From a virus, in the IMG/VR virus record IMGVR_UViG_3300009129_000036, positions 1 to 39,500 of that record: 39,500 nucleotides of DNA. One strand, 5' to 3'. The notes under the pieces are model-generated. The model was not told the DNA's origin. It did not search any database and was given only the letters and a program-made list of their open reading frames with translations. Below are positions 6,237 through 14,176 of the stretch, piece after piece. Every line of letters begins with the position of its first letter. Positions within the stretch are counted from its first letter, which is position 1. The translations under genes and the position numbers were made by a program.

Positions 6237-6334
6237 TAAATTACTCCCTCTACAAAGTGTAAGTATGCCCCTATCAATATAGCAGCTCCTACCAATATGT
6301 CTCTGGTACTTAATTCTTCAAATACATACTTCAT
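6236..6334 (-). CDS. Tiny membrane protein (32 aa)
   Basis: ATG 6334 overlaps the stop of the iscA-like gene (ATGA). It encodes a short charged start (MKYVFEELSTRD) and one hydrophobic span. Overlaps on both sides support translation. Confidence 0.4.
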   Translation of the reverse strand: MKYVFEELSTRDILVGAAILIGAYLHFVEGVI

Positions 6335-6690
6335 ACTGTTACTCCCTTTTTAAAGCTGAAACTTTCGCCACAGCCACATGATGCTTCCACATTAGGATTG
6401 TCGAACTTAAATCCTTCGTTTAAGCCTTCTCTAACGTAATCTATTGTTGTATTATGTAAATACTTATAGTCTTTTAAGTCTACAAATAACTTAATATTTC
6501 TACTTAGAAGAATAAGAGATTCTTCTTTTTCAGGGTATTCATAACAGGCTTCCATTTTATACATCCAACCAGAACAACCATTAGTTGTCATTTTTAACTT
6601 AATGCCTAATATATCTCCCCTCACTCTATTCATATAACTACTTATATGATTAGCCGCTGGAACTGTTAATTGTATACTACCTCTACTCAT
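6331..6690 (-). CDS. A-type iron-sulfur carrier, IscA/ErpA/HesB family (119 aa)
   Basis: Matches the A-type Fe-S cluster carriers (IscA, SufA, ErpA), which take clusters from the scaffold and hand them to target enzymes. The three ligand cysteines are present: C39 in NGCSG and C105/C107 in CGCGES, within the signature DYVREGLNEGFKFDNPN. Length fits the family (about 105-120 aa). The frame extends to an ATG at 6741, but the start at 6690 (MSRGSIQLTV) aligns with the family and follows GGAGG by about 11 bases; it overlaps the upstream stop by 8 bases. A host-derived metabolic gene in a phage operon, perhaps supporting Fe-S enzymes during infection; whether it acts like ErpA or IscA cannot be told. 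Confidence 0.9.
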   Translation of the reverse strand: MSRGSIQLTVPAANHISSYMNRVRGDILGIKLKMTTNGCSGWMYKMEACYEYPEKEESLILLSRNIKLFVDLKDYKYLHNTTIDYVREGLNEGFKFDNPNVEASCGCGESFSFKKGVTV

Positions 6691-7015
6691 AGTAAGGTCT
6701 TTCCTCCGGAAACCTTTTAATTCCTGGCTTGTCTTGAACATATACTTTTATCTTTGCTCTACCCCAAGGACCGCCACGCATAAGATAGCTATCATCACCA
6801 TTTCCATCAGGATCGCAACCATCTGTGGAATTGAAACCCATTTGATACTGCCACCGAGGCTTATCGCCTTCGCGAATACTTGTAGCTAAATACTCTGCTT
6901 TTACTTCGGTTATTGGGCCAAAAGATTCTCTTAATTCTCCAGCATTATACCACCAACCCCCTTCTTCTGGGCCACCATAGCATTTACTTACTTCATAAAC
7001 ATTCACATATTTCAT
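6683..7015 (-). CDS. Conserved-looking hypothetical protein (110 aa)
   Basis: Rich in Gly, Trp and Tyr, with KCYGGPEEGGWWYNAGEL near the N-terminus and an acidic DGCDPDGNGDDSYL loop that could bind a metal ion. It overlaps the iscA-like gene by 8 bases and the upstream tiny gene by one base. I have seen this general pattern in phage hypothetical proteins but can name no family. Confidence 0.6.
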   Translation of the reverse strand: MKYVNVYEVSKCYGGPEEGGWWYNAGELRESFGPITEVKAEYLATSIREGDKPRWQYQMGFNSTDGCDPDGNGDDSYLMRGGPWGRAKIKVYVQDKPGIKRFPEERPYYE

Positions 7016-7150: not shown

Positions 7151-7227
7151 TGGCGGAATGGATGGGACTTGAACCCACAACCTCTGCCGTGACAGGGCAG
7201 CGTTCTAGCCTATTGAACTACCACTCC
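7151..7227 (-). tRNA. tRNA-Asp (GTC)
   Basis: Complete cloverleaf with acceptor stem GGAGTGG/CCATTCC, discriminator G and encoded CCA. The anticodon stem CTGCC/GGCAG encloses CTGTCAC, giving anticodon GTC. T-loop TTCAAGT is standard. Close to the E. coli tRNA-Asp pattern. Confidence 0.95.
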
Positions 7228-7289: not shown

Positions 7290-7373
7290 TGGTGGAAGGG
7301 GTTGGATTTGAACCAACGAACCCATGGGATCAGATTTACAGTCTGACAGCTTTAGCCTCTTGCATACCCTTCC
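7290..7373 (-). tRNA. tRNA-Tyr (GTA)
   Basis: Class II tRNA with a long variable arm (ATCCCATGGGTTC). Acceptor GGAAGGG/CCCTTCC, A73 and encoded CCA; the anticodon loop CTGTAAA gives GTA. Its 5' end directly abuts the CCA of tRNA-Gly, so processing must separate them. Confidence 0.95.
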
Positions 7374-7446
7374 TGGAGCGGATGTAGAGAATCGAACTCT
7401 ATCAGCATGCCTTGGAAGGGCAGCGATTCACCTTGAACTCACCCGC
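7374..7446 (-). tRNA. tRNA-Gly (TCC)
   Basis: Acceptor GCGGGTG/CATCCGC with one G-U pair, T73, encoded CCA; anticodon loop CTTCCAA gives TCC. T-loop TTCGATT is standard. Confidence 0.93.
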
Positions 7447-7461
7447 GAAATTCTCTTTAGA

Positions 7462-7534
7462 AAGCAATAAAGACATCAGTGGAGGCGTTCTCTCTGCAGA
7501 AAGTACCAAGCTGATCGTAATGTCTTTATTGCTT
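7462..7534 (-). other. 15-bp perfect inverted repeat between tmRNA and tRNA-Gly
   Basis: AAGCAATAAAGACAT (7462-7476) pairs perfectly with 7520-7534, enclosing a 43-nt loop with its own palindrome (TCTGCAGA). No U-tract follows, so it is not a plain terminator. It could be the last domain of the tmRNA coding piece or a processing signal (RNase III-like) separating tmRNA from the tRNAs. Confidence 0.6.
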
Positions 7535-7543
7535 ATTTAAGTA

Positions 7544-7817
7544 GGCCCGTTGGGTAACAAGGAGGGCCGATCCCCGTTTAGCTTATGCAGCTAAAGAATA
7601 AACGTCATCGTTTGCGTTTAAGTTTAGTTATAAAAATTCTCCACTTACCTTCCCTGCATGTCGATACTATTCAGCCCCATCAAAAACACACCCTGCGTAG
7701 TCTTCTACGGTAATCCGTTGGGAACCTTACCACGCCTTACAGGTGTGTTTATGGTGGAGCTGGAGGGATTCGCACCCTCGTCCATTACAGCTATTCTCAG
7801 CTTCCTCAAATTTTTAT
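7544..7817 (-). ncRNA. ssrA: Circularly permuted (two-piece) tmRNA, tag ANDDVYSLAA
   Basis: tmRNA rescues stalled ribosomes by adding a degradation tag. Here the gene is permuted: in transcription order the acceptor piece comes first (7817-7752, T-arm GAGGG/CCCTC, encoded CCA). Next is a 73-nt spacer closed by a 9-bp repeat (GGTGTGTTT/AAACACACC). The coding piece starts at 7678 (GGGGCTGAATAGTATCGAC). The two ends rebuild one acceptor stem, GGGGCTG with CAGCTCC, with the G3-U70 alanine identity pair. The tag frame (7615-7583) begins GCA AAC GAT GAC and reads ANDDVYSLAA-stop, and the context CGCAAACGA matches E. coli. A tag-stop hairpin (TTTAGCT/AGCTAAA) and a GGCCC...GGGCC pseudoknot-like element (7544-7568) follow. 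The first nine bases of the acceptor piece, ATAAAAATT, complement AATTTTTAT in the coding piece (7638-7630), which would hold the pieces together. The 3' limit of the coding piece is uncertain. Confidence 0.93.
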
Positions 7818-7823
7818 AAAGAT

Positions 7824-7852
7824 ATTATACTCTCTTTTGACCTACTTGTCAA
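7824..7852 (-). promoter_or_regulatory. Sigma-70 promoter of the tmRNA/tRNA cluster
   Basis: Minus-strand TTGACA (7852-7847), 17-base spacer, TATAAT (7829-7824). The predicted start near 7817 coincides with the first base of the stretch complementary to the coding piece of the tmRNA. Confidence 0.88.
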
Positions 7853-7873
7853 GAAATTTTTTTAAAAATTAGG

Positions 7874-7948
7874 TAAGGGACGACGGACTTGCACCGCCAT
7901 CTTCGGAGTTGGACACCCGAGATGTTCTCTTAGTTACACCAGTCCCTT
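7874..7948 (-). tRNA. Abnormal tRNA-like gene, anticodon uncertain
   Basis: Acceptor AAGGGAC/GTCCCTT, a D-stem (GTGT/ACAT), a 5-nt variable region and a T-stem (GGCGG/CCGTC) all fit a 75-nt tRNA. However, the 3' end is CCT rather than CCA, the D-loop lacks the GG pair, the T-loop reads TGCAAGT instead of TTC-type, and the anticodon arm does not form a regular 5-bp stem with a 7-nt loop. By counting, the anticodon would be TCC after G33; by pairing, CATCTCGG with CCGA(A)GATG leaves a 10-nt loop, GTGTCCAACT. Either a decayed tRNA or one with a special role. Confidence 0.6.
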
Positions 7949-12931: not shown

Positions 12932-14176
12932 ATCAAAATTTTATTTTTATTTTTACTATTATTAGCATTACCCGTAGCAGCACAAGAACCCATTAAAGTA
13001 GGAGTCTTACATTCGCTCTCAGGAACTATGGCGATTTCAGAAACTACACTTAAAGATACAGTATTAATGCTCATAGAGCAACAAAACGCCAAAGGAGGCG
13101 TACTCGGAAGAAAGTTGGAACCAGTTGTCGTAGACCCAGCAAGCAACTGGCCTCTTTTTGCAGAGAAAGCGCGAGAGCTTCTCGAAAAAGAGAAAGTAGA
13201 CGTGGTATTCGGATGCTGGACCTCAGTTTCTCGCAAGTCAGTCCTACCCGTTTTCGAAGAGTTAAACGGATTACTATTTTACCCAGTTCAGTACGAAGGA
13301 GAAGAATCTTCGAAGAATGTATTTTATACTGGAGCTGCGCCCAACCAACAAGCTATACCAGCCGTAGACTATTTAATGGACCTCGGCGTCACCCGTTGGG
13401 TTCTCGCAGGGACAGATTATGTATATCCCCGCACTACGAATAAAATTTTAGACGCATACTTACAGCAGAACGGAGTTTCGCCTGACGACATTATGATTTC
13501 TTATACCCCGTTTGGTCATTCAGACTGGCAGTCAATTGTATCAAATATTAAAAAGTTTGGGTCTGCCGGAAAGAAAACAGCAGTTGTATCAACTATCAAC
13601 GGAGACGCCAATATTCCGTTCTATAAAGAACTTGGAAATGCTGGTATAAATCCTGAAAATATTCCTGTAGTTGCCTTTAGCGTAGGAGAGGAAGAGCTTT
13701 CTGGTTTAGACACTTCTTCTTTAGTAGGGCATTTAGCAGCTTGGAATTATTTTATGAATGTTGATTCCGAAGTAAATGATGACTTCATAGACACTTGGTT
13801 AGATTATGTTGGTAATGATAGAGTGACTAATGACCCTATGGAAGCTACATACATTGGGTTCAATATGTGGGTAGCTGCGGTCGAAGCCGCTGGTTCCACC
13901 GACCCCGCTGCAGTACAAGAGTCTATTCTTGGTATTAGCGTGCCCAATTTGTCAGGTGGAGTTGCCACAATGTTGCCGAACCACCACATAACCAAACCAG
14001 TCCTTATTGGTGAAATTACAGGTGATGGTATGTTCGATATTGTTTATGAAACAGAGTTAGTTCCTGGTGATGCTTGGTCTGACTTCCTCCCCGATTCCTC
14101 TGTTTTAGTATCTGATTGGAAGACTTTGAATTGCGGTAACTATAATACTGCTAGTGAGTCTTGTATTTCTAAATAG
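12932..14176 (+). CDS. urtA: UrtA-type urea ABC transporter substrate-binding protein, ATC start (414 aa)
   Basis: Periplasmic binding protein that delivers urea to the UrtBCDE transporter. Signature stretches such as FYPVQYEGEESSKNVFYTGA and APNQQAIPAVDYL are typical of UrtA, and length (about 414 aa) fits the family. The first ATG (13028) would lose the signal peptide and the first strand (IKVGVLHSLSG). Upstream, the same frame encodes a perfect signal peptide (ILFLFLLLLALPVAAQ, then EPIKVG) beginning at ATC 12932, six bases after AAGGAG. Host urtA-family genes begin ATG at the matching place. So either ATC is used as a weak start codon or one base is mutated or misread. The other transporter genes are absent, so the protein would have to serve the host's own transporter. 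Confidence 0.93.
   Translation: MKILFLFLLLLALPVAAQEPIKVGVLHSLSGTMAISETTLKDTVLMLIEQQNAKGGVLGRKLEPVVVDPASNWPLFAEKARELLEKEKVDVVFGCWTSVSRKSVLPVFEELNGLLFYPVQYEGEESSKNVFYTGAAPNQQAIPAVDYLMDLGVTRWVLAGTDYVYPRTTNKILDAYLQQNGVSPDDIMISYTPFGHSDWQSIVSNIKKFGSAGKKTAVVSTINGDANIPFYKELGNAGINPENIPVVAFSVGEEELSGLDTSSLVGHLAAWNYFMNVDSEVNDDFIDTWLDYVGNDRVTNDPMEATYIGFNMWVAAVEAAGSTDPAAVQESILGISVPNLSGGVATMLPNHHITKPVLIGEITGDGMFDIVYETELVPGDAWSDFLPDSSVLVSDWKTLNCGNYNTASESCISK

Follow-up and report, generated by a model that had tools for sequence, protein, structure and literature searches.

tmRNA is the RNA that frees stuck ribosomes. The window, by which we mean the whole 39,500-nt stretch of viral DNA analysed here (positions 1 to 39,500 of IMG/VR record IMGVR_UViG_3300009129_000036), carries a gene for this RNA on its minus strand in circularly permuted form. 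The acceptor piece comes first, ending in CCA at 7754-7752, and is followed by a 73-nt intervening segment and by the coding piece, which begins at G7678 and bears the tag at 7615-7583. The original prediction, made from the letters alone, had placed here a phage-encoded two-piece tmRNA with its acceptor end upstream of the coding piece, and had proposed ARAGORN and Rfam covariance models as a check. Both call a permuted tmRNA: ARAGORN on the minus strand, with tag ANDDVYSLAA and a resume consensus, and the merged permuted model RF04321 with 97.6 bits (E 6e-18, cut-off 47) over the full model (1-213). The stem that the two pieces were expected to rebuild is there as well, GGGGCUG/CAGCUCC forming 7/7 pairs that include the G3-U70 alanine signal and are followed by A and CCA. 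The D-loop is divergent. To this picture our analysis adds a promoter, the structure of the intervening segment and a 15-bp terminal hairpin (Table 1).

Table 1. Positions of the tmRNA gene parts and neighbouring elements in the window
Feature	Position	Strand	Basis
Sigma-70 promoter TTGACA-17-TATAAT, predicted start A7817	7852..7824	-	12/12 consensus matches
Acceptor piece: inter-piece pairing strand, T arm, acceptor 3′ strand, CCA	7752..7817	-	RF04321 alignment, ARAGORN domains
Acceptor piece 5′ end, complementary to 7638-7630	7809..7817	-	9 Watson-Crick pairs
Intervening segment (predicted excision); structured insert and 10-bp terminal stem	7679..7751	-	fold z -3.0
Coding piece 5′ part: acceptor 5′ strand (7678-7672), D-loop, P2 strand, short tag leader, tag	7583..7678	-	
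Tag frame GCA...TAA, ANDDVYSLAA-stop	7583..7615	-	ARAGORN
P5 hairpin around tag stop and pseudoknot-like module GGCCC/GGGCC with CCUUGUUACCC	7535..7582	-	
15-bp terminal hairpin 3′ of coding piece; processing site or terminator	7462..7534	-	fold z -4.7
Weak tRNA just downstream, anticodon loop CTTCCAA (TCC)	7377..7446	-	Rfam tRNA 30.4 bits; no ARAGORN call
tRNA-Tyr(gta)	7290..7373	-	ARAGORN
tRNA-Asp(gtc)	7151..7227	-	ARAGORN

Upstream of the promoter, a tRNA-like sequence at 7866-7945 (minus strand) has matching ends (AAGGGAC/GTCCCTT) and is called by neither ARAGORN nor Rfam; it is perhaps a decayed tRNA. An IscA/SufA-like iron-sulphur assembly protein (6331-6741, minus strand) adjoins the tRNA cluster.

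Promoter, pairing between the pieces and apparent exchange among relatives

The 5′ end of the acceptor piece (7817) is placed from the position of the promoter, and with a predicted start at A7817 no 5′ trimming of this piece would be needed. The promoter is kept at the same distance from the CCA in the relatives L114 and L226 (12/12 matches each) and L093 (11/12), and nearly so in L165 (10/12); in the window and in the first three of these, the −10 box ends 72 nt before the end of the CCA. L083 and similar relatives are without the promoter, and there the gene follows the apparent end of an upstream reading frame.

The 9-base complementarity that had been pointed out between the predicted 5′ end and the coding piece (ATAAAAATT/AATTTTTAT) is present, and a pairing of this length was equalled in only 2 of 2,000 dinucleotide shuffles. 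When the alignment is read by eye, L114 keeps most of the 9-bp helix, with one compensating change from U-A to C-G. The distance between G1 and the tag is only 63 nt in the window, as against 80-99 in 76 cellular permuted genes, which leaves no room for a normal pk1, the pseudoknot that generally precedes the tag in tmRNA; judged by length only, the window has none. In the window lineage the inter-piece helix seemingly occupies the place of pk1, a reading drawn from length rather than from a solved structure. Energy-only co-folding of the two pieces was also tried and set aside, as it did not reliably recover P2.

Covariation supports the pairing of the two pieces. In a set of 87 distinct permuted genes from viruses, 100% of acceptor-stem positions are paired, compared with 91% when partners are shuffled, and pair 5-68, which the search pattern had left free, is always standard (GC in 49 genes, CG in 23, AT in 12 and TA in 3). 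In loci recovered by the signature search the pattern itself prescribed G3-U70 and the outer pairs, whose constancy there is not independent evidence; both are also kept in loci reached through the terminase or the tag. Two relatives with a permuted gene were found through the terminase only, G037 with tag ANDDVYSLAA and G013 with tag ANDDVYFEDIRLAA, the gene being seen in only 3 of 40 terminase relatives, most of these fragments. The tag codons vary silently among relatives, loci found by the tag pattern having been partly selected for this.

The intervening segment has a terminal stem in most viral permuted genes. Stems of at least 7 pairs are found in 62% of them and in 7% of shuffles; long stems are common, not universal. 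The segment of the window recurs with 94% identity over 68 nt in L214, whose tmRNA otherwise differs, and its core is present in L432, which has the same type of tRNA-like domain and intervening segment but differs in its tag, GNDDIYDMAA, and in the module that follows the tag. From these sequence comparisons, tags and intervening segments appear to have been swapped among these phages. The inner part of the hairpin at 7462-7534 is 98% identical over 59 nt in L114. Hairpin cores of about 50 nt lying 3′ of the coding piece, as in L114 and the window, are found again in relatives and differ widely from one T5-like phage to another. We also considered whether these two hairpins, the intervening and the terminal one, could be dispersed mobile elements, and rejected this: the window holds no second copy, and the few found elsewhere lie in or adjoin tmRNA genes. 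As a separate observation, the 152-nt intervening segment of L211 (also of L215, L218, L220 and L224) contains a short reading frame with a basic product, MRIPMKGGDEFDGL..., which continues into the coding piece of the tmRNA, and another such frame lies in the 103-nt segment of L225.

Phage context, tag distribution and ancestry

The window phage is T5-like and apparently aquatic. Its terminase is about 49% identical to those of Vibrio and enterobacterial T5-like phages, and is followed by the portal, prohead protease, tape measure and tail genes. We found no direct link to a host; its T5-like kin infect gammaproteobacteria. The phage also carries a urea ABC transporter substrate-binding protein, UrtA (13028-14176, plus strand; TIGR03407, 522 bits), 77% identical to a Photobacterium one. 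This phage UrtA is absent from 50,697 phage records and present at nine IMG/VR loci, among them the near-identical contig 3300013114_000374. A stretch resembling a signal peptide lies in frame upstream of its first ATG, after AAGGAG, and the start codon is apparently non-standard.

At least 120 IMG/VR contigs match the permuted-gene signature, and a nucleotide search of the gene against 50,697 phage records gave short matches only. A search for the tag in metagenomic phages, which the original prediction had proposed, recovered the ANDDVYSLAA codon pattern in 22 viral contigs (the pattern also admits T for S, and several matches read T), all 22 of which ARAGORN calls permuted, one call starting out of register. 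Among GTDB r220 representatives, ANDDVY.LAA codons occur at 112 loci: 92 are called as one-piece tmRNA with that tag, none as permuted, and the remainder are truncated or in another frame. The named records shown for this tag are Gammaproteobacteria or 'Proteobacteria' MAGs. Among the loci called, ANDDVY.LAA was thus seen only in one-piece genes in cells, and ANDDVYSLAA only in permuted genes in viruses, and the tag had been rightly described as gammaproteobacterial in type, since for cells this is literally true. The further claim, that such a tag on a permuted gene is anomalous and has to be explained by a new permutation or by tag adaptation, is not supported. Permuted genes of Betaproteobacteria encode ANDENYALAA, ANDESYALAA and ANDERFALAA, so that permuted genes with gamma-like tags are not unusual as such; the claim is further weakened by beta-type permuted tmRNAs in cultured gammaproteobacterial phages and by the published two-piece tmRNAs of phages (PMC9004378).

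For the window, direct scoring slightly favours the betaproteobacterial over the alphaproteobacterial model. The window reaches 65.6 bits with the beta model RF01850 (below its cut-off of 84; E 2e-21) and 60.5 bits with the alpha model RF01849 (above its cut-off of 50; E 5e-18), and cmscan reports beta_tmRNA as the clan's best match at the locus. Nearly all relatives score higher with the beta model, mostly by far, G045 being the exception. An alpha origin, suggested by a first Rfam table, was dropped because of this scoring. The module after the tag is like that of many cellular beta permuted genes (CCTTGTYACC) and unlike that of alpha genes (TGGCAACAGAA).

Two trees were built from about 166 columns, the second with more betas than the first. 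In both, the cellular alpha genes make up one starred side and the window lineage lies outside them; the second tree has a group that joins standard gamma genes and cellular betas with cultured gamma phages, and the window lineage sits close to this group without falling within it. A clade of the T5-like lineage with beta genes alone is rejected (p 0.0077 in the first tree and 0.017 in the second), one with alpha genes gives p 0.0097 and 0.09, and one with standard gamma genes is not rejected (p 0.094 and 0.203), values that are indicative given that the groups were partly chosen after viewing the trees. Betaproteobacteria sit among viral sequences. Several separate acquisitions by Betaproteobacteria were considered and not retained, as a single betaproteobacterial clade is not rejected (p 0.56).

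As to history, we offer as a speculation, with the odds against it, that permuted tmRNA outside Alphaproteobacteria has its main reservoir in phages, and that the form was reshaped, perhaps permuted anew, in viruses of gammaproteobacteria with one-piece genes and then passed to scattered Betaproteobacteria. The narrower suggestion of the original prediction, that a one-piece gammaproteobacterial gene became permuted independently in phages, we hold to be improbable. The restriction of ANDDVY.LAA in cells to one-piece gammaproteobacterial genes and the unrejected clade with standard gamma genes speak for it, but the gene fits the alpha as well as the beta permuted-gene covariance model, the architecture and the CCTTGTTACC module are common to viruses and many cellular betas, and a single shared permutation is simpler.

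Proposed function

The two-piece tmRNA of this T5-like phage is real, and it is probably functional. We put at roughly 0.8 the probability that this is a working gene with its own promoter, the product of which rescues stalled ribosomes through host factors. This is the best explanation of the sequence, pairing and promoter described above; the processing, charging, tagging and benefit that it entails are taken from known tmRNA biology. That tRNA genes are its neighbours gives further support; the short stretch before the tag, the divergent D-loop and the small number of terminase relatives that showed the gene weigh against it. Transcription would start from the gene's own promoter at the 5′ end of the acceptor piece; processing of the tRNA type would free the CCA end and cut before G7678, and the intervening hairpin would then be discarded. 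The two RNAs would be held together by the acceptor stem, P2 and the AU-rich 9-bp helix. Charging would fall to the host's AlaRS, by way of G3-U70, and loading on ribosomes stalled at broken messages to its SmpB and EF-Tu; the ribosome would then append ANDDVYSLAA, a tag of the type read by host proteases. The likely benefit is that ribosomes stay available during infection. No SmpB was found in 16 phage records, and activity is therefore assumed to depend on that of the host.

The role might instead be proteolysis, with host proteins tagged for breakdown and their amino acids recycled early in infection, as suggested for phage Melnitz (PMC9004378). The LAA end of the tag and a consensus sigma-70 promoter suited to early host transcription are consistent with this, but tmRNA tags stalled chains of any origin and nothing here indicates selectivity, and we consider it unlikely. 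We give slightly less credence still to a phage-made inhibitor that tags poorly and competes with host tmRNA or sequesters SmpB. Such an activity has a precedent in the tagless tmRNA-like RNA of phage DS6A, which inhibits endogenous tmRNA in E. coli (PMC11915505), and the missing pk1 and absent SmpB would suit it; a decoy, however, needs no tag, whereas here the tag frame is intact, with silent changes in relatives, and promoter, tag and pseudoknot module are all kept. A decayed, non-functional relic is very improbable: the shortened tag leader, the divergent D-loop and the score under the beta cut-off would fit decay, but the promoter is perfect, the acceptor stem complete with G3-U70, the tag intact, and the gene conserved in L114 with a compensating change.

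The gene form of a ribosome-rescue RNA can differ between host and phage. Viral permuted tmRNAs constitute a large and little-described reservoir with exchangeable tags and intervening segments, whose compact members without pk1 test the minimal requirements of tmRNA and whose diversity makes the origin of the scattered betaproteobacterial two-piece genes testable.

Comparison with known permuted tmRNAs

Phage two-piece tmRNAs were published in 2022, with that of Melnitz and 53 two-piece structures in phages (PMC9004378). The marine myophages Melnitz and Mosig (PMC9004378) likewise have a permuted gene in an aquatic phage, and Mosig scores 93.6 bits with RF04321, close to the window. They differ in being T4-like, in the tag of Mosig (GEDNFALAA) and in a reported glutamine riboswitch (PMC9004378), of which Rfam finds none in the window. 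The Stenotrophomonas phages Moby, Bhz51, Ps15 and DLP6 and the Pseudomonas phages PaMx31 and FBPa45 also carry permuted tmRNAs, mostly among tRNA genes. These reach 92-111 bits with beta_tmRNA (RF01850), above the cut-off that the window falls short of, and have other tags; the window additionally lacks the space for pk1. The sampled family of Luteimonas, itself related to Stenotrophomonas, has hardly any permuted genes (1 of 79 genomes, slightly above cut-off). The tmRNA of phage Marzo was noted as 'Betaproteobacter-class' (PMC8928761). In the uncultured gut crAss-like phage cr10_1 (L087, 1440-1825), ARAGORN and Rfam (49.6 bits, just above cut-off) call a permuted tmRNA, which is doubtful, the call overlapping a tRNA.

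In Betaproteobacteria, RF01850 finds the permuted gene in 15 of 399 genomes of one order; these genes have short gamma-like tags as in the window, and many have the CCTTGTYACC module. Five cultured Demerecviridae gave no permuted tmRNA; with T5-like phages of this family the window phage shares about 49% identity in the terminase and about 30% in the tail tube. Two-piece tmRNA in phages was already known; the present gene extends it to the T5-like group and is unusually compact.
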